64,000 nt of DNA. Source: Bryopsis sp. KO-2023. Taxonomy: Eukaryota > Chlorophyta > Ulvophyceae > Bryopsidales > Bryopsidaceae. Positions within the stretch are counted from its first letter, which is position 1, and every line of letters starts with the position of its first letter. The notes under the pieces were generated by a model. It did not search any database, was not told the origin of the DNA, and saw only the letters and a program-made list of their open reading frames with translations. Where the stretch lies: assembly GCA_030272585.1 (NCBI GenBank), contig BSYQ01000007.1, forward strand, positions 4,964,001-5,028,000, in the 5' to 3' direction. Positions 15,760-58,627 of this stretch are shown piece after piece. The translations under genes and the position numbers were made by a program.

Positions 15760-17640
15760 CTCAAATCCATGCACTGTCCGAAAAGTCAGTGAAAAATCCA
15801 ACCTCGTCCAAACGAACCCTCCCACGATCCCGATAAAAGAAACGAACATAAAAATATAGAAAAGAAAGTTGAAAAGAAAAATAACCCAAAACCCCAGAAA
15901 ATGCTACTGTTTCAAGATAGTAAGAATTAATTGCCCCCAACTGCCAAAGCTGAAAAAAGAGCCCAGTAGTTCCCGTCCCCGCAGTGAATTTGTAAGAAAT
16001 CCCAATCCCAGTGTTCCGACTCCTTAAGACTTTCTGACAGTGAAATCCGATGTGCCCTAAAAGCCGGGCACTCCATAAGTAAATGCCATCTGGATCCAAT
16101 CACTCCCTCCTCACAATGTTCACACGTCGCATTATCATTTATCCCTATTCTGTGAAGATATTCGTTAGTTGGGAAATGACCACTAAGAAATCGAAGAGCA
16201 CAAACAGTAGCCCAATTGGAAAGAGCCCGTGCCCACTTTAGATTAAACAAGAAAGAGGGAGTTTCCCCATTCACCAAGAGAAGGCCTGGATCCACTTGGG
16301 CAGACTGAGTGTCCCATACTTGTAGTGTTTCCAGACCAGTCCTTTAATCAATGCAAGATTCGCTGGAAAATCCCATTTAGCCAAAAGTTCGCTTCCCTGT
16401 GCGGGAAACCAAACAGAGGCTGCTTTTGCTGCCTCATCCGCTGCTTCGTTTTCCTCCACTTCGCAATGGCTTGGTGTCCACACAAAAGTCATATTTGTGG
16501 TTGCACTCACCTCTCTCACCATGTTACGAACTTGCGTCACTGACTTGAGAACCCCTTTCAATCCTTTCAACGCTCGAAGTGCTCCTTGAGAATCGGAGAC
16601 AATATTCAACTGTGCACAGGTCATTCCTTCAGTTTGAAACACAAATAACGCCAGCTTAATCGTGCTGCTCCCCAGTCCATTGAGATTGGCCTGGAAAACT
16701 CGACCCGAGCTTTCGTTTCCTCGAAATAGTATCGCACCAGCACCTGCCACTTGTGTTGTCACAGATCCATCTGTAAAAAACCAAAGGGTGTTCTCTGGCG
16801 AATCCCTCCTGAGATTGAAATTCAATAGTTTATATTGCCCTCTCCATATTTTCCGCGCTCCGACCCAACTCCGCAATTGAAATTCGCGCTGGCAAGTCAA
16901 ATGCCCATGATGGTGAGTCAAACTGGGTGACACAATCAATACCGTCCCACAAATTCTGCGCTACTGAAGTCCTCGAAAGTGCACGCACTTCTCTCTGTAT
17001 CATATCTAAGAATCCACCATCACTCAGCCCACTTGGTGCCAAGCCCTTCCCGTGTTTTAGCGAATTACAATGATGGAGGACGACCATTGCACCCATGCGC
17101 AAAATTCTGTCGAGTTGTGTTAATATTCCTCCATTTGCAGTCACCCCACACCATGCGACTATGCCATAGAAGAGTTTTTGGACTACACACGCATGGACAA
17201 TCTTGGACAATTGTTCAGGATGTATCCCCCACCTTGCTCCACGGAGCTTCCGAAGTATCATCAAACGAGTCATACACTCCTTCGAGGTTATCCGAATATG
17301 ATCTTTCCAAGATAGGCGTTCATCAAACCATACTCCCAAATACCTGAGTGTCGAGACTTTTGGAATTATTTGGCCCTCCAAACGTAAGTTGCCGGGAGAA
17401 TCACATTGATTTCTCCTTGTAATCAACATCCAACAACTCTTTTCCGGAGAAAATTCCAATCCCCATTGTTTGCTCCAGCTCCCCACTGTGTGCAAGGCCT
17501 CATGTATGGACCTCCAACTAGTCTCATTATCAACCTCCATTTACCCAAAGCATCTCGTGGACGACATCTTCGCCAGTCAGACTTTCCGTCCACTAACAGC
17601 GGAATTGAGTGGAACCCCAAAATTCGAGTGCTGATTTATC
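15760..17640 (-). mobile_element. Decayed 5'-truncated non-LTR retrotransposon (LINE) with RT end, RNase H and CCHC
   Basis: Minus-strand blocks in order. 17540-16830 is the thumb end of a reverse transcriptase (SWSKQWGLEFSPEKS, LRYLGVWFDERLSW, then many RT C-terminal features). 16939-16271 is an RNase H domain (WFFTDGS, IVSDSQGALRAL, WTPSHC and NEAADEAAK). 16295-15927 is a CX2CX9HX4C knuckle after FPTNEYLHRIG. The three blocks lie in different frames, so at least two frameshifts are present, and the RT fingers/palm and any ORF1 are missing. The RNase H catalytic Glu position appears as Lys (STIKLAL where A/S..E.LAL is expected). The RT-RNase H order fits I-like LINE clades. It lies between the convergent side of the Pumilio gene and the gene at 18.1 kb. 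The exact element ends are not visible. Confidence 0.85.
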
Positions 17641-19659: not shown

Positions 19660-21130
19660 AAGCGTTCAAACGAGAAATGGGGGAAAAAAAACCGTCGATG
19701 TGTATACTAATATATGTTTTAGACTGCACACTTTTGAAGCCAAAAAAGAAAGAGATATATATATATATATCAGAGGAGTTTCTTTGAAAACAAAAAAAAG
19801 AAACTGACGATGGCTGGAAGTGATGAAATTTTGAGTCGGATGGATGGATGGATTTTCATGGGGAAAATATGAGTGTGTATTTGTGTGTATGTGTGTGTGC
19901 GTTGAAAGAACGTCCCAGGGTTTAAAAAAAAAAAAAAAAGCAGCCCGCAGAGCAGGAGGAAAATCATCAGTCGGAAAAAAAACTAAGTGTGTATCCTTTT
20001 TTTTTTTTTTGCTTTGTATGAATGTGTCGTTTTATCTTTTTTTTCCTCGATTGGTCCCTTTTTTTTGTGGATTCTCTCGAGATTTTCCGTTTTTAGCCAT
20101 GGCCGGGGGTGGAGCATTTTTTTGTTCACACTTGCTGGTTTGGTTGTATGAGTAATGTATGCAAAAAAGACAAAAGAAAAAATGCTTCGTGTGTAGGTTG
20201 GGCTATGATGAGAGTTGTTTTTGTTACATTCTTGAATATTTGTTGGGAGGGCCTGGGTGTTTTTTGCCAATCAGAGGAAAAGGAGTTGATATTGGATGGA
20301 CTTTTTGGTGTATGGGTTGGTAAGATAAGGAAGATAAGATGGGCTGTGTGAAGGACAGGAATATGTGGAACATATTCACATCATGGATGGATATGATGTA
20401 TCTGTTTCAAGCATTTTTTTGAAGTGCTAACCAAAAAAATATATCTTTTAGTCTACTGCTGAAGAAATTCTTCCTGTCCAATATCTTCCTTTTTGTGCAG
20501 ATTCATTGCCAAAACATCCACATAATCCCCGAAGGGGTTTTTTATGCCACATCCACATAATACCCAAAGGGGTTTTTTATGCCACACTCTTTATGTGACC
20601 CAAACCCTTGACCAATGGTTTCTTTGGGGGGGAAAAGTTCAACAGCACTTCACAGCAGGTTGAATACTCAGTAACTTTTCGTACTCTTCGTAGATGATTA
20701 ACTGAACCGAACAGCGGTGTGTTTTCCTCGCGGCTCAAATAAAACTTCGATCAGCAAGCAGCTCCAGGAGCGACGAAAAAGAAAATCCAACAAAATAAAC
20801 TGTGATTCCACAAACTCACAACACCATTTCCAATGACTAAGTGAATATATTTACAGGGGATCTATCAATGTTGTGTTCTGAACCTTTCTGAACTTGAATC
20901 GTTGAAAATCTTTTCCTTTTTCCCTAAAAATTGGGCCACAGACAGTGTCCAGAGCCAATTTTAACCTAGAAAAATGAAAAACACACTGCCCAACAGCACA
21001 AAATCAGCACCAAATCAAACAATGGCCCCCCAAAATGGCCCCCACTGTCCGGTGCTATGAAAAACTGCCGACAGCTAAGAACCAAAAGCATGCATTGCCA
21101 TTCTCCACCGGACGGTACCGTCTCCGAGTC
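19660..21130. other. Intergenic region between converging genes
   Basis: About 1.5 kb between the 3' ends of the 18.1-kb gene and the 21.1-kb gene. It holds a (TA)n run (19753-19770), GTGTGT-rich sequence near 19870-19900, A17 at about 19923 and T runs, and the tandem pair at 20515-20584. I see no gene. Confidence 0.5.
20515..20584 (+). repeat. Two 35-bp tandem units containing CATCCACATAAT
   Basis: Two adjacent 35-bp copies differing at two positions (CATCCACATAATCCCCGAAG against CATCCACATAATACCCAAAG, then an identical GGGGTTTTTTATGCC part). The first 12 bases recur almost exactly in the duplicated repeat at 51957-52177, which suggests a dispersed family. Confidence 0.75.
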
Positions 21131-22828
21131 CTAGAAGTGCTCCAATTGTTTGACTGGGTTTGGGAATTGGTGATTTCGGTCCATCATGTCGAATACTTCG
21201 GTCAGTCCTGGATCGGCTTTTACCTTCTCCGCGATCCTGGTTAACACCTGATAGAAGTCAGACCCCTTGTCCACCTGCACTGCACCGCCCCGCACGATGC
21301 CCGGATTTTCTTCCATAGCCCTCAGCTTTGCTGTCTTGCACATCTTCAAAATAGCGAAAGTCTCCGCAGCTTTGGGATGATCCGCCACAGCGAGGCCGTC
21401 TGTCAGCGGCGGCATCATGAAGGGTGGCAAAACTGCGTCGAAGGGAGGAGAACACAGCTTCCTGATTCCTTGCACGAACTTTTTGTCCTCAAAGAAGCTG
21501 ACCGTCATCTTTCCACTCATCAATGTACTCCATGCGTGAGCCAAAACCGCGTCTTTTTTAAGAGCCTTGGAAAAGGCTGCCGCCGCCTTTTTAGGCACCG
21601 GCTTCACACTGTCTATCTGCTCTTCGATTGCCCTGCTCGCCTTCTGCACCCGCTGGAAAATCTGCTCGAAAGACGAGTATTGCTTCCTCGTCGTTAGACG
21701 AACACAGTTCGTCTTTAGTTTGAAGGGGTTGCCAACACCGTCGACCCAAACAGGCACGCGATCAGTGGGCGGCTCGAGAATAACAGACTCGTGTACACGA
21801 CCCTTTCGCCCGTTCAACTCAGGCCTCTTCTCCAAGTTGCATACCACAAATCCAGTACCTGGCGGGGTGATCAGGACGAGCTCATCCCGCAGAGCTGCGA
21901 CAAGTCGAGACCACTTCGCACCCAAGACGCCGTTTTTGTTCCTTCGACGAACGAACGTTTCAAGAGGCGTGACCTCAACACTGGACCCATCTTTGGCATG
22001 GAAAGAGCGCAGGTGACGAACGGAGAGCGGCTGCAAGAACTTTATCTTTCCCTCTTTGGTCGAAACGTTCGGCTCCATGAGGAACTTGTGGCTGAGATCC
22101 TGACCCACCATCCTCTTGGGGAGGGACTTGCAAAGCTCGTACACTGGAGTGGTGAACACCAGCAATGACACCAACTCCCCATCTTGCCGACGAAATCCAC
22201 TGTCTCCATATGCTGCCCCACAGACGTCAACATGCACCATACGCCTTTCACCTTGCCCTTCGACGATTGCGGCAACCCACCAGTGCGGGGCTGACGTCAT
22301 TGCCGCCTTTGGTGCGGCAGAAGCTTCTGGCACCCCGAAACCAACTCGTCGACAGACGTCGGCCCCGACTGAGCGCAGCATGTCTTGGTCCTCGTATGTG
22401 CTCAACACACGGATGGTGACACCGGATATTGGATCCCTGAGCTTGAGGATGCTGGTCGATGGGAGGTCTGAGACGTCGAACATGGTGGTGTTCATCACCC
22501 ATATATCAACAACGCGATCACCTTCGTAAGATAGTGGAATGCCGCTGTCGCACAGTTCTTTGAGGCCTTCTGCGACTGCATGGACGTGTCCGTCACAGCC
22601 TATAGCACGGTGGAGCTTAAGATGGCAACGCTCCTTTTCCTCTGGGCTGAGGATAACATGGTCGAGGTCGTCATACCAGAGGTCGTTGGCGGCGATGGAA
22701 CTTGCACTGGGGGCTGTCTCAAAGGTGCTCTTGTCGACGACCTTCGTTATGTGGATATGCAGGTTGTTATACTCCAGCAGCATTCGAGACAGCTTCGCTG
22801 ACACGTCGATAAGGTTAAAGCCCTCCAT
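21131..22828 (-). CDS. Uncharacterised intronless 565-residue protein
   Basis: One uninterrupted frame from ATG 22828 to the stop at 21131. It stays open about 75 bp upstream of this ATG, with no better start. I do not recognise the family. Visible features: a GHVHAV segment and many buried-strand-like stretches in the first half; a segment with ELNGRKGRV then PVWVDG and FKLKTNCVRL at about residues 340-385, like the small beta modules that carry LNGR-G-V patterns in unrelated algal proteins; then an Ala/Lys-rich helical C-terminus. There is no signal peptide or membrane segment. An intronless 1.7-kb gene is unusual beside neighbours with up to 27 exons. A retrocopy, a transferred gene or a member of a lineage-specific family are all possible. 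Placed next to a CACTA element, it might also be element-borne, but it lies outside that element's ends. Confidence 0.6.
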   Translation of the reverse strand: MEGFNLIDVSAKLSRMLLEYNNLHIHITKVVDKSTFETAPSASSIAANDLWYDDLDHVILSPEEKERCHLKLHRAIGCDGHVHAVAEGLKELCDSGIPLSYEGDRVVDIWVMNTTMFDVSDLPSTSILKLRDPISGVTIRVLSTYEDQDMLRSVGADVCRRVGFGVPEASAAPKAAMTSAPHWWVAAIVEGQGERRMVHVDVCGAAYGDSGFRRQDGELVSLLVFTTPVYELCKSLPKRMVGQDLSHKFLMEPNVSTKEGKIKFLQPLSVRHLRSFHAKDGSSVEVTPLETFVRRRNKNGVLGAKWSRLVAALRDELVLITPPGTGFVVCNLEKRPELNGRKGRVHESVILEPPTDRVPVWVDGVGNPFKLKTNCVRLTTRKQYSSFEQIFQRVQKASRAIEEQIDSVKPVPKKAAAAFSKALKKDAVLAHAWSTLMSGKMTVSFFEDKKFVQGIRKLCSPPFDAVLPPFMMPPLTDGLAVADHPKAAETFAILKMCKTAKLRAMEENPGIVRGGAVQVDKGSDFYQVLTRIAEKVKADPGLTEVFDMMDRNHQFPNPVKQLEHF

Positions 22829-23876
22829 TTCGGACACCCACTCGAGACTCGTACCCTCCGGTTGATTCTGAGCAAACTCTAAACCTAGCTTTCGAAAGCT
22901 TTCGTCGAAAATATGTCTGCCAGTTCAGTTCCACCCGGTGATATATATGAGATGGTGGGACGTCCGTGTCCGACACGGAGACGGACACAGAGGCCTGCTT
23001 GTTTGACTGATCGATGGGTGTTGATGGACTCGTCACCTCTTTTTTTCGATTAAACACGAAATTTCGCAAGTGTTTGAATAAATCAACACAAAATCACAAT
23101 CCTCCATCAGTCACTGAGTGGCACTCCTCCATGTGATGTCCTTCTTTTGGGATTGTTGGCATTGGCGTTTATCAGAAAATGCAAAAACGATGAGAACTGA
23201 ATTTCCAATGAATTTCAACATTAAAATACACATGGTCACTTTTGGTTTTTTACTGATCCTTGTAATAGGAGAATGCCTACACAATGTAATTGATGTTTGT
23301 TTGTTTGTAAAAGACTTTCCGGTCCGGTGCCATAACTTCGAGGCAATGCAAATCCAGAGATGCCCGTTATCACATTCACGTCGACATACAGGTGCCCCTC
23401 CGCAGGGGCCAACCATTGCTTTGCTGACCTCTGCCAATTCATCCTGGGAAAAACAAACATCTCACAGGGAGGAAAGCATTACTCATCATTATCAAAAGAG
23501 CAATGCTGGGGCCCCACACAGGGTTTATTATCCTGATGAACAAAAGTATCGAATCATGATTCGAATTTGAAGAAAAAAACAAAATTGCAAAGAGATAGAA
23601 ACGACACTTTTGTCGCATGCACATACATTTGTAGAACTGTATGTTTTGACAAAAAGCTGGTGCTCAACTGAGCGTACATACATTCATTCATTTTCCCTAT
23701 CTTTCATCATGATGAAAGCCCAGAGATATCTCGATATATATATATCCATATGATTTTCCGAAGAAACTTCCTCTCACTACCTGACAATCTCACCTAAAAC
23801 AAGTTTTAGTTGGAGTGAATCTTGGAGTGAAGCTGAATGAAAAAATAGTGTTGGCTCCACTGACCCAAGCTCCAAC
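22829..23876. other. Gene-poor stretch left of the CACTA element
   Basis: About 1 kb with no supported coding exon. It should contain the promoter of the minus-strand 565-aa gene. A (TA)n-type run lies at about 23734-23746. Confidence 0.4.
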
Positions 23877-23914
23877 CTGCACTAGTAAAAAAACGCCTAA
23901 AAAACACACTTTTT

Positions 23915-24296
23915 AAAGTGTGTATTCATATCGAAAAATTGTGTTTTGTTGTGTATTTTTCGGAAATTGTGTATCTGAAAAATTGTGTAACACAATTAAA
24001 ACCGTGTATTCTTGACCGCTTTTCGTGTATTTAATTGTGTATTCTAAGGGTTTTAATTGTGTATCTCCGTGTATTTACAGGAAATTGTGTATGTTCCTGG
24101 TGTCCATGAAAATGTGTATTTAAAGTGTGTATTCTTGTGTACAGCGACGGGAGATTTGGTGATCACTCGAAAGTGTGTATTTAATTGTGTCTTTCTGTGT
24201 AGGTGAACGGGAGATTTGTTGGGCATGGGAAATTGTGTATTCAAGTGTGTATTTATGTGTATGACAACTGGGATTGTGTATTTCTGTAGTGAAACC
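23915..24296 (+). repeat. Left subterminal GTGTATT array of the CACTA element
   Basis: About twelve copies of GTGTATT, with further GTGTATC/GTGTATG variants, irregularly spaced at 10-40 bp. All are in the same orientation. Confidence 0.9.
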
Positions 24297-24659
24297 GGAG
24301 ATATTCTTTCAAAACAATTTACAAAGATTGAATCCACTAGCCAAAAACCACCACCACCCAACTCACAAGATCCACAACACCCCTGCTCCAAACTTTTCGA
24401 GTCAAAAGCACTCGACAGAGGCGGAGCTGGCAAAACTGCAATGACCCTCTAAGACAGAAGCCTCTTCGGATTCCTTCGCTTCCAGAGCGATTCCAATCAC
24501 TCCAATATGGAGGCCCTCCTTTGCCAAGCTTGTGCAAGGACTTGCTGTCAAACAGGGTCATTGGAGGGATCAGCCAATGATCCCCCCAGCCCCCCTCCTC
24601 CACACACACACTATCTCCTCTTCTGTTTTCCCATAACATGGTGCTGATTGGTTTCTAGA

Positions 24660-24867
24660 GCAAACAGTGTTATCGACAAAGCTCGAAACGGTGGGATCGT
24701 CCAAGGAGTCGGTGCTACAAGGGCTGGATGTTTTGGAGTCGGTGGAGGGGATTCATGGCCTTTCGGCCTGGGAGGGGCTTCTCATCCTCCATGCAACAGT
24801 TGTCAAGCTGGGTCATTCGGAACTGAATTGGCCTGGGAGGGCCACCTATTCACAAACACAGATGGAT
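24660..24867 (+). other. Exon-like open segment inside the CACTA element
   Basis: A pyrimidine-rich stretch ending ...GGTTTCTAG is followed by about 0.2 kb of open frame with good codon structure (it includes SSKESVLQGLDVLESVEG and WEGLLILHATVVKLG) and then AGC followed by GTGAGT. Acceptor, open frame and donor together resemble a host exon. It may be a captured gene fragment or the relic of an element-encoded exon. I cannot name the family. Confidence 0.4.
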
Positions 24868-26083
24868 AGCGTGAGTACAGCTGCAACCTTGGGGAAAAGA
24901 CGAAGGGAATAGTGAACGTACGTCGGGGAAAGACCTTTTCCTTCTACTCACCACAGTAAGCGTTGCAGTGTAAGTTGTACATCCAACCCAGCCTGTGGCA
25001 GCCAGGGTTGGGACAGTAACTAGGTCCAACAGGTTCTCTGGTATTTTGCATTGGCCAGGATTCTGTGCCAATCGCACGACCAACCGAATTGTTGGGCTGA
25101 TTTTTTTTCTAGGGACACTTTTCACCAACCTTTTCACTGGCAGTGTAGGTAGAAACCACACCACACTTCTTTTTTACAGGAAGGATTCTCTGATCAGCAA
25201 AAAGTTGCGTTGCGTAATAGGACTAAAAAGGCAGGACATCTGCATCAATCTTTTTGCAAGCTTTTTTATTGAACCCAGCAGATTTCACATCAAAAAATAT
25301 TCCAAGTGTACAAGGGACTTGTATGAATGTCTCTCACACACAAATATATCTCTTCAGCTGACCAATTAGGAAGAACATACCTTGGACAACGAAGCAACCG
25401 ACAAGCTCACTTGTGTTAGAATCCCAGTGGATGATGGCGGCTATTTCTTCGGGGCTTCTCCAATTTTTGAATAGAAGGGGATTGGAAACAGGAGTATTGA
25501 CTCGGCATTTCCTAGTGCTTTTCCCACTGCTTTCTCTCTCTGCCTTTCGAGTGGTGGTTGCCTGGGCGGCCTCTTTTTCAGCCTGAAATACAAAAAACAG
25601 ATTGCTGGGAAGTAAAGAATCACGTTTTGAACATCACCAAAATAGTTGATTAGATTAACTGTTAATACCAATACAAAAGTAGTGTGAAAATACAGAAAAA
25701 CTGTCCAACACTCTTACCAAGCCAAGCACACTCCGACCAAGGAAAGGCAGCGATTAAATCTGACGACCCCAGGGTTTCGATCTCGGTTGTCGGCCCCCCC
25801 CCCGCCCGTCAGTAAGCATGGTCGTGTGCGTTGGGCGCTTCGTTTATGATCTCGCGTTCCTCTTCTAAAAAAAAAATGAAGAGCACGGTACAACAGCACA
25901 GCACTCCGCCCAACCTGTTCACTCAAACTGAGCACGTCCTCAGTTCCATCCGCGCGTCTTTTTCTCACGTCCAGCGCCAGCGCCAACGCCAACGCATGGG
26001 AACCTCGGCCCGCAATCACATCACGCTTGCGATCTGACAAGGAAAAGTACGGCTGATCCAGCAAGATACACAATTTTGTCTTC

Positions 26084-26195
26084 ATGAAATCATGAAACGG
26101 AAAGCTACACACAAATACACGCAAATACACAGTTTTTCTTGCTGAAATCATGGTACAACGGAAAGCTACACGCAAATACACACAAATACACAATT
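26084..26195 (+). repeat. Right subterminal repeat pair of the CACTA element
   Basis: Two tandem units of roughly 55 bp, each with TGAAATCATG, then ACGGAAAGCTACAC, then two AAATACAC motifs. These are the reverse complement of the left-end motif, as expected for subterminal binding arrays. Confidence 0.85.
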
Positions 26196-26251
26196 AAAAA
26201 CTGTGTTCAAATTTGAAATTGTGTTTTCTAGCGTGTTTTTTACTAGTGCTG

Positions 26252-26470: not shown

Positions 26471-27052
26471 TTAATCGGCTTGTTCCAGGTCGAGAAGAAC
26501 AATCGCTATCGAAACCATCAACGCCAAGTCCACCCCCGCAGCAACTTCCAGCACCGAAGCGCAGCCCCACCGGCCTGGCAAGATCAAATACGCTAGGGTT
26601 CGGCTGCCGTTCACAATGGCGAGTTCTCGATTCGAGAAGCTCCCCTTGACCTTCAATAATTCGCAACTCCCCTCTTGGCCAGACGCTCCCAACCGCAACT
26701 CTATCCTGATGGTTGACCGGGAAAACAATTTGAAGCGCTTCTCCACCGCCGCCACCTTGCTTGGATCGTTCCAGCGGAAGATTTCTCTACGATAATCCCC
26801 GACAGCTCTCAACATGAACAGGGGTTTATTGTCCGCGCCGAGAACAGCCTGCTCCTTCGTGAAGCTGCAACGCTGACGTTGAGATTGAAATAATTGGCGG
26901 CCCTGAAGATTTCGAACATTGAAATCGATACCTAGGGAAGATTTCTTAGCCTGCAAGAGAACCCTCGATTTTTCTTTGGCCGCCAATCTCGGCGTGCCGT
27001 TGGACGGGGATGCATCTTGAGACGTCAGGGTCCTGTCGGAACAATTTGCCAT
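26471..27052 (-). CDS. LURP-one-related (LOR, tubby-like fold) protein
   Basis: Single-exon gene of 193 residues starting at ATG 27052. The C-terminal half has the order of features seen in LURP-one-related proteins: a strand pair with LFMLRAVGDYRREIF, a KVKGSFSNRELAIVNGSRTL segment (family pattern: a K.G....R...I....G), and a final hydrophobic helix in EVAAGVDLALMVSIAIVLLD, matching the (P/A)GVD.AL...L.VV.D signature. The fold is a beta barrel around a central helix, related to Tubby and to phospholipid scramblases. Plant members act in defence responses but the biochemical activity is largely unknown. The first 60 residues are basic and poorly conserved. It sits between the CACTA element and SepSecS, on the same strand as SepSecS but 1.1 kb away. 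Confidence 0.7.
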   Translation of the reverse strand: MANCSDRTLTSQDASPSNGTPRLAAKEKSRVLLQAKKSSLGIDFNVRNLQGRQLFQSQRQRCSFTKEQAVLGADNKPLFMLRAVGDYRREIFRWNDPSKVAAVEKRFKLFSRSTIRIELRLGASGQEGSCELLKVKGSFSNRELAIVNGSRTLAYLILPGRWGCASVLEVAAGVDLALMVSIAIVLLDLEQAD

Positions 27053-28169
27053 GGATCGTCTCTCCTTTGATTTCGGACGCTTTCTTTTGAACTAACACGG
27101 AGAACAAACTTTGGAAGGGCACACAGACTTTGAAAGCTATTCACAACAGCGTATCCTGCGTTTGGTGTGGGGGCAGGAGTTTTTCACCTCAAGTGAGGGG
27201 TGGTTCTGTCATCACCTCTGAGGCCGAGAGATTTGATGCGACCTCTAGGGGTACCTCTTGGAGAGAACATAAAACGGCAGAAACTTTTTTGAAGACTGGG
27301 ATTGAAACAATTGTTTGGTTTGTGACGGTTTGTGGATTTTGGAAATGGTTGGCTGCTGGATTGATGGGTTGTGAGAGTCGGTCTGGTTAGAGTGGTTAAT
27401 GGGTTGACTGAAGGACTTTGGTATTTAGTTGGTTCTAGTCTTTGTTTGGGACATCATCTTTTTGTTGGTATTTGTATTCTGGCTTGAGGCTGGAGACGCT
27501 TCCCTGTTCGTGTGGGGAGTGTATATTATCTCCCGACTTCTATTTGACTCTCTCGAAACATTGCCACCTCATATCTCGAGCAAGATACAATGGTCAACAC
27601 AGATCAACACATTACAATTTGCGGGAGGTCATATAATCAATCAATCAATCGATGCTTACATGTTGCATGAGGAGCCAGGTGGCACTCTGCTCCTATCGCA
27701 ACCTGAGACCAAACAATAACCCCATCAAAAACAAACTGAATCCATAAGCCCTTCAACAAGAAACAACCAAAAACACACCAACTGCACTCATCCCAATTCT
27801 GTTCAATTCTGCCCATCCTGGAATCGATTCCACAATAAACCGAGTCACACTGACCTCTAATTTAAAAAAGTGCCTTCTCCATTCAGATGGATTGACAAGA
27901 GTTTTTGCAACAGACGAGGATGTTTTTTCTCCAGACAAATTTGTGTCAGTAGTAAACTTTACCAGAATCTGGTAAGAAAAAGCTTGGAAAACGTGTAACT
28001 CGGTTGCGTCTCTCAAAACGCTAACGTTTCCACTACACCTGATTTTGTGGGTACAGTATTCGTTGGAGTCCCCGATCCAAGAAGCAATCATGTCCGTCGA
28101 GTGAAATGCAAGTGGCACATTTTCTTTTCTTCGTTGAGCGGACTGTTTTCTGGCAGTTACGCTGCGGCC
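27053..28169. other. Intergenic region, LURP-one-related gene to SepSecS
   Basis: About 1.1 kb covering the SepSecS 3' UTR and the LURP-one-related promoter. Some open frames run through it but none shows family features or splice structure. Confidence 0.4.
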
Positions 28170-30997
28170 TTATGTTTCGACCCGGGGATCAGCTGCATGG
28201 TCCACCAGATCTTCCCCCAGGACAACCCCCTTTTGCTTGCGCCATTCTTTGAAACATTTACTGAGTCGGGAGACAAATTCGTCCACGTCGCTCCTCGCAG
28301 TTCCGAGGGAGGCGGCGGCGGTCATGTAATCACATGGGTACGTATCGTGGTGGGCACCGTAGCCATCAAACTCGACACCCGCGACACTTTGGCGTTTCCC
28401 CCTAGCCACCACACGAGTGCCCGAAACACACCTGAAGCAAAAACAAGCCACGTTTCATGAGGTCCCCAACCAAGATACAGGCATCGAATTCCACTCCCAT
28501 TAACGTGCAGAAACGGGCCTGTCACGTGGGGTCGGCGTCCCTACCTCGACCACAGCATCGATCCAAAGTAGGTAACGTCTTTTGATGCAGTTTGACCTTC
28601 ACGTGCCTCAGTTTTCAAAGTGCTGAGTGTCAGTCCCAGCGAAATGGGGTTGTTGGGGGTGGACAACACTCTTTCACCCATTTCTTCGGCAAAACCCTCC
28701 AGGCTCGATTTCATGTACTCATAAACAGTCGCCCTCTCTTCAAGAACCTTACAGGAAATATCACCAGTTTTCACCCCCAAAAAACACCACCATCTTTTCT
28801 TTTGGGCGATGCTTGCCCAAAAAACGTACCAAACCATCAACCAGTAAATTCACAACGAAAAGGAATCCTGGGGTGCAACATTTTACACAAAATGGTTGGC
28901 TTCATGCCTCACCTTTTTCCACCCAGACACCCCCCAATGGAGCAAGGTCATCAACAAATCCAAATGGGAAGATACCGCTGCTCGTCCAGGATACGATTTA
29001 TTGACCGCTTGGACAAGGTCCATGTTTGCCTTGGGACTTGCAACAACGGAGCCACCGACCGGCACCATGAAGTTCTTGTCCGTGGACTGAATGATAGCAT
29101 CCACCCGTCCTTTCCTCAGTGCACGCGTCACCTCCCTGGAATCGAGAGTCCAGACCACACCGTTTCAGATGCTATGGTGTCATTGATTGACCCCGAAACA
29201 TCGGCAGAAAAAAACAGAAAAGAAGACAGAAAATGGAAAAAAAAACAGAAAAAAGAAAGAAATGGAAAGATGTGAGGTACCGACAGATTTGGGCCGCCTG
29301 GACTCCGTAGGCATTGTTGATGATGTGGGGGACGCCCGATGCCAAGCACAGCGTTGCAACATCCACTATCTTGTCCGTTCCTCTGGGGGCAAAGCAGCTG
29401 GTAGTGGTGGCCACACACACAATATTGTCCGACCCTAACTCTTTGATTTTGTTTTCCACAGCGAGGAGGTCAGTTCGAAGCTCGTCCCCTTCGAAGATGT
29501 TCTCGATAACGATGGGGATGAGGTTGGCAGAGGCGATGGCTTTCAAGCATGTCTTTTGGTCTATGCGTGACCACAAAACATAACGAGCCTGAAAAAACCA
29601 AAATCAAAACATTGAACATCCATGATTTGGAAAACATTATTCTTTGAAAAAGTGGATCGGCCACACCAGGTGTCCGGAATAATGCATGTGGCATTCCAGG
29701 CAAAAAACAGACCCAGAAAATGAAGCAGCTAGCTTTTTCTTGCTGGAAGGGACTATGGTGTTTATTTTATTTTTTTTCTGGAGAGAAGATCCAGTGGATG
29801 CAAAGCTTGCACTCCAGGCTCCATACAAGCAAGCATGACGTCTGTTATTCAGACATTCTACCACATCTCAGATTTCCATTATCAAATCTGATCCCACAGC
29901 CGACCAATGCCATCAGACGATGTCGGAAGGAGGGGGGGGTTCCAGTCTGACACTGTTTCATCACATTCACCTGAGGGGGCCTCTGAGCCTTCAAAGCAAG
30001 CAGAGTCATTGTGATGGCCATTCCGGTCGCCAGAGGCAGAACTGTGACTATCCCCAAATCCTTTATGCCAGCGATATCCAATGCATGGCCTGCAAGTAGA
30101 TTCGCCAGTTTTGCAATTACAGAAGACCCGGCAGCCTGGATGGAACAGTACGTAGTGATTATGGGATTGTTTCAGTTGATCAAGATATCGTCATGATGAT
30201 GCTGCATTCATTGTTGGCATTTTGTTTCTGGGAATTGAAAGAGCCTTTGAACAACAGTGAAGGGTGGAAGTCTGTCAGAGCACCTTGGGTTGTTCAGCAG
30301 ATATATCCCCAGAGCGTCCTATTCCATGGGCCAGCCTGAAGGTTCAACATCAATGCGGGCATCTTGAACTCAGGAAACAGAAAACTTATTGCAAGGGTAT
30401 GCGTTCTACGAGCAGAATCGTCGGTGATGGACGTATCGACCTGACCTCAAATATCGCCGGGATACCAAATCGCAGGCAACCCTTCCTTCACGTTCACCCA
30501 CCCCAACATTGTCCAAGAAATTGTTGCTGTCCATCAAGGCCAGATCCTACCCAACAACAAAAAAAAAGTTGCTCTTTATAATCATCAACCATCAACTTTG
30601 CATCTGAAGGAACGAAATATCAAAATCGCAGCTTAATCATCAGAGGGAAATCCAGAATAAAAATCGACCGAAAATGTGGTGACATGCAGAGGTGTCGAGG
30701 GCGCTTTGGAAAGTGTCAAGATCTATTGCCATATATATATATATATATATACATACATATATTATATATACCCACAATGTTATCTGGATCTCATGGAGCA
30801 ATTTTGCAATGAGGTGATGTCATCGTCACCTGGACAAACGTTTCGATGGTGACGTCATCCCAGCCTTCCGCTGGGATCTTCCTTTCGGACAACAGCGTTT
30901 TGATCTTGCGCTGGCGGCGGGCCAGAGCTTGCGACCCTTGCGCCACATAAGATTTCGACACCAGCTGACACGCGATGTCGCAATTGTCGGAATTCAT
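28170..30997 (-). CDS. SEPSECS: O-phosphoseryl-tRNA(Sec) selenium transferase (SepSecS, SLA/LP)
   Basis: Eight exons: 30997-30830, 30546-30446, 30335-30284, 30135-29971, 29588-29281, 29135-28913, 28747-28545, 28431-28170. Phases close exactly, giving 493 residues against about 500 in animals. This PLP enzyme turns phosphoseryl-tRNA(Sec) into selenocysteinyl-tRNA(Sec) with selenophosphate, the last step of eukaryotic Sec synthesis. Clear landmarks: [10 protein letters not shown] near residue 45, [39 protein letters not shown] (phosphate-binding loop), [20 protein letters not shown], and the PLP-lysine segment [27 protein letters not shown] and [14 protein letters not shown] follow. The match runs the whole length with no break. 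It is divergent from SF3B5 with 194 bp between start codons. The start is the ATG giving [18 protein letters not shown], which lines up with the animal N-terminus. Confidence 0.96.
30738..30772. repeat. (TA)n run in SepSecS intron 1
   Basis: About 16 bp of perfect TA repeat followed by interrupted TA/CATA sequence, 60 bp inside the first intron. Confidence 0.85.

Positions 30998-46178: not shown

Positions 46179-58627
<12,449 letters not shown>

Follow-up and report, generated by a model that had tools for sequence, protein, structure and literature searches.

A probable complete, non-autonomous CACTA/EnSpm-like transposon with opposed subterminal GTGTAT arrays in an intron-rich eukaryotic genome

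Non-autonomous copies exist for the En/Spm element of maize. CACTA elements as a whole are described as ranging from algae to animals, with CACTA/TAGTG ends and a 3-bp target duplication (PMC4158355), and their subterminal repeats as extending over several hundred base pairs (PMC8978399). In these accounts the ends are recognised by the transposase, whereas an accessory protein has been proposed for the subterminal motifs (PMC4158355, PMC8978399, PMC2613891). EnSpm elements are already known outside land plants, namely from brown algae and, by citation, from red algae, the giant red-algal elements being referred to within a paper on the brown alga Ectocarpus (PMC12477816).

The locus described here occupies positions 23880–26248 (2369 bp) of a window of 64,000 nucleotides, the window being the whole stretch of DNA that was analysed. 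The span given in the original prediction, 23877–26251, takes in the two CTG copies of the target duplication, which lie outside the element proper. The ends read CACTAGT...ACTAGTG, and the left terminal inverted repeat (23880–23912, plus strand) pairs with the right one (26216–26248, minus strand) without mismatch over the first 13 of 13 bp and imperfectly thereafter, 27 of 33 bp being identical in all; the predicted imperfect repeats of about 30 bp are therefore retained with the qualification that their initial 13 bp are perfect. Comparison of the flanks places the 3-bp duplication CTG at 23877–23879 and 26249–26251. Flank identity is found at 3 bp and is lost at 2, 4, 5, 6 and 8 bp, a 3-bp match by itself having a chance of about 1/64. 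Of the 167 pairs of CACTA and TAGTG that lie 100–20000 bp apart in the window, only that of the element is perfect over 13 bp or more. When the window was shuffled 200 times with preservation of dinucleotides as a chance control for the ends, a 13-bp CACTA inverted pair arose in a single shuffle and such a pair combined with a 3-bp duplication in none. The window contains one copy of the element.

Inside the terminal repeats lie two arrays of the hexamer GTGTAT, restricted to both ends of the element and opposite in orientation. The left array (23920–24281, plus strand) comprises 16 forward motifs and the right one (26066–26191, minus strand) five reversed motifs; counted as forward/reverse, the left 440 bp have 16/0, the right 190 bp have 0/5 and the middle of the element has none. 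Outside the element the density of GTGTAT is 0.44 per kb, and a 440-bp stretch there has at most 4 on one strand. The sequence GTGTATTT behaves similarly, with 16 occurrences in the window, 11 of these inside the element, against an expectation of 1.55 per whole window and a shuffle maximum of 5. The predicted ends, CTG duplications and inverted arrays are thus all borne out at their places, with one correction: the arrays are of unequal length, GTGTAT spanning about 360 bp on the left vs. about 125 bp on the right. Elsewhere in the window, an array-like stretch is found at about 19874–19898 (25 bp, 92%).

The arrays have a regular internal organisation, for which Tandem Repeats Finder returns a unit of 60 bp on the left and of 61 bp on the right. 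With the looser motif (T/C)GTGT(A/C), triplets with a spacing of 10–13 bp and a period of 60–61 bp can be made out from the positions, and these take in 9 of the 20 sites on the left and 6 of the 7 on the right. Three such triplets occupy 24114–24262 in the left array, where they recur every 60–61 bp (element positions 235/248/258, 296/308/318 and 356/368/378); the right array holds two, with a 61-bp period (58/68/78 and 119/129/139, with the right end as position 1). Since the spacers between triplets differ from one arm to the other, the arms share only the motif and its spacing. With one copy at hand, differences between the arms may be a family trait rather than a signal of age, and the predicted recent origin of the element is not supported. 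Helical phasing of the left-array motifs is not significant, the observed value being reached by 160 of 601 random sets. The triplet spacing common to both arms leads to a testable prediction on the assembly of an end-binding protein.

The original prediction also stated that no transposase is visible, and this stands: the element is overlapped by 35 stop-to-stop frames of at least 45 aa, not one of which matches a Pfam family at its curated cut-off, so that no transposase is recognisable among them, and the longest open stretch measures 159 aa. Seven Pfam matches with E-values of 0.09–0.24, located in 5 of the 35 frames, were dropped as all fall below their own cut-offs. The Transposase_21/TNP2-type transposase that an autonomous CACTA/EnSpm element would encode is not found, nor was a relative of TnpA or TnpD detected in the element. 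What is found are the features expected of a non-autonomous member, that is, inverted CACTA/TAGTG ends, a 3-bp duplication and opposed subterminal arrays. The class assignment rests on these matched ends, the flank repeat and the arrays, with no transposase tying the element to the superfamily. On this basis we read it as a complete, non-autonomous CACTA/EnSpm-like cut-and-paste transposon, with a probability of about 0.87. Because the cis-acting parts are present and a transposase is not recognisable, the element would need to be mobilised in trans: a transposase supplied from another genomic locus would cut at the CACTA ends, insertion with a 3-bp stagger would produce the CTG duplication, and a TnpA-type partner protein might bind the GTGTAT motifs and draw the ends together.

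The element may not be devoid of genes, and in this respect the original prediction is incomplete: the minus strand carries a candidate spliced frame whose start falls in the right array. Its first exon (25915–26085) starts at an ATG at 26083–26085, between the two innermost motifs of that array, and includes one of them; it is joined in phase to a second exon (25381–25582), which has an AG acceptor and a GTATGT donor. The junction between the two is the same in an earlier hand reading and in the output of a simple gene finder, which used generic splice scores and had as its training set eight open frames from other parts of the window (2173 codons). The gene finder assigns 33.7 to the minus strand of the element, a value that refers to its whole six-exon model and not to exons 1 and 2 alone and that exceeds 100 of 100 shuffles (mean 16.8, maximum 27.4); the plus strand scores 12.4, under the shuffle mean. 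Exons 3–6 of the model disagree with the hand reading and are not claimed here. Hand-read plus-strand exons were set aside, having no Pfam match and lying on that low-scoring strand, and so was a cysteine-rich piece on the minus strand (about 24947–25108), also without a Pfam match.

Taken singly, the two exons are unexceptional in codon score, that of exon 1 being matched or beaten by 4.7% and that of exon 2 by 13% of open frames in a control region at 56–64 kb. A score of at least 33.7 on one strand is also reached by 20 of 33 other 1.8-kb stretches of the window, some containing training genes, which is expected as the window is gene-dense; the four stretches that start past 56 kb score 10–16, like shuffles. 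For the candidate protein, no relative was found in Pfam, NCBIfam, PDB sequences (best E-value 1.1), viral contigs or prokaryote genomes. Indeed, tblastn returned no relative either for the exon-2 peptide in 53 pattern stretches from viral contigs or for the two-exon peptide in 316 pattern stretches from prokaryote genomes, and a single-sequence fold of exon 2, of low confidence (pLDDT 64.8), matched no PDB fold at an E-value of 0.001 or less. A minus-strand gene is thus plausible, though unproved, and any function given to it would be inferred from its position. As the only spliced frame outscoring shuffles starts at the right end, the promoter probably lies on that side of the element.

How this frame came to lie in the element can be read in more than one way. 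It might be host-derived, the interior of a CACTA element having captured a host gene, a reading compatible with the preferred one. The minus-strand score above all shuffles, the candidate peptide without a Pfam family and an interior GC content near that of the window all agree with such a capture, which we nevertheless regard as unlikely, given that the window holds no donor copy and that the frame starts inside the right array. Indeed, with its start within the array and an array motif in exon 1, the frame is more natural as the element's own gene, and could be what is left of the gene of the element family, or a short version of it. A bolder form of the same idea, in our view quite improbable, is that the element represents a compact 'helper-only' CACTA form, which carries no transposase and retains an intact spliced gene for a predicted subterminal-binding protein. 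It would then be moved in trans and yet supply its own end-binding factor, a protein without relatives in the libraries searched.

Target duplications of Transib and Chapaev elements measure 5 and 4 bp, respectively, and the flanks of the present element differ at both lengths. Membership of another superfamily with CACTA ends, be it a CMC branch of other duplication length, a Transib/RAG-like group or an undescribed one, appears highly improbable: a transposase that could decide the matter is not recognisable among the 35 frames compared with Pfam, and some CMC elements with CAC/GTG termini are reported to give 2-bp duplications (PMC6004678), but the flanks agree here at 3 bp and differ at 2, 4 and 5 bp, and the classical CACTA layout as described combines CACTA ends, subterminal repeats and a duplication of 3 bp (PMC4158355, PMC8978399, PMC2613891). 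That no transposon is present and chance ends merely flank GT-rich simple sequence is scarcely credible, as the array-like stretch at about 19874–19898 is outweighed by the absence of ends with a duplication from all 200 shuffles and by opposite-strand arrays found only inside both ends.

The window comes from the nuclear genome of a eukaryote and its genes are rich in introns; host genes for Pumilio repeats, SepSecS, PI4K, RNase P/MRP p29 and DnaJ were identified, together with a frame most similar to the RNA polymerase I largest subunit. The earlier designation of the host as a protist is no more than plausible. The SepSecS (selenocysteine synthesis) exon lies at 29175–29603 (minus strand, E-value 4e-33), and selenoproteins are therefore probably synthesised by the host. 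The element is bordered by two minus-strand frames, one of 597 aa (21131–22924) and one at 26474–27091 with a LURP-one-related match below cut-off. The former, which adjoins the element, is uninterrupted in a region otherwise rich in introns and matches no Pfam family at an E-value of 0.001. Further away, overlapping frames at 15930–16960 (minus strand) match RNase H (E-value 5.5e-07) and zf-RVT (27.0 vs. a cut-off of 27.5 bits) and are read as a remnant of a non-LTR-type retrotransposon. Two repeat pairs of about 110 bp were also noted, one direct and imperfect (51957–52192, 75% identical), the other inverted (49448–50502, 72% identical, with about 845 bp between).

Relatives of the element were sought in viral contigs and prokaryote genomes, two collections in which a eukaryotic element is not expected, and none was found. 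Exact DNA patterns for the left end, for both ends and for the right array had no match in the viral contigs, an unlikely place for such an element. The end pattern occurs at 27 bacterial or archaeal loci; these were taken as chance because all 27 lack GTGTAT in the next 450 bp and a partner end of more than 6 bp within the available stretch.

Comparison with described elements shows a known superfamily layout, and knowledge of the superfamily is unchanged by it; what the locus adds is a CACTA-type element with precisely defined ends, from an intron-rich eukaryote that may lie outside land plants, and these ends give a handle for finding the active family. En/Spm of maize and its deletion derivatives resemble the element in their CACTA ends, 3-bp duplication (PMC4158355) and short subterminal motifs, whereas the motif of En-1 is described as a 12-bp sequence with a TCTTA domain (PMC2613891) and that found here is based on GTGTAT. 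In soybean Tgmt*, too, imperfect CACTA repeats of 13 bp are combined with asymmetric subterminal repeats and a duplication of 3 bp; Tgmt* is however reported as 20.5 kb long with a transposase gene (PMC2613891), as against 2.4 kb, no recognisable transposase gene and another motif here. The viral CMC MITEs are likewise non-autonomous, with CAC/GTG ends, and were assigned without a transposase, but the duplications described for them are of 2 bp (PMC6004678) instead of 3 bp. Finally, the EnSpm elements of Ectocarpus exemplify the superfamily outside land plants, a likeness that holds if the present host is an alga or protist; compared by description and not by sequence, they include giants of up to 15.2 kb (PMC12477816).
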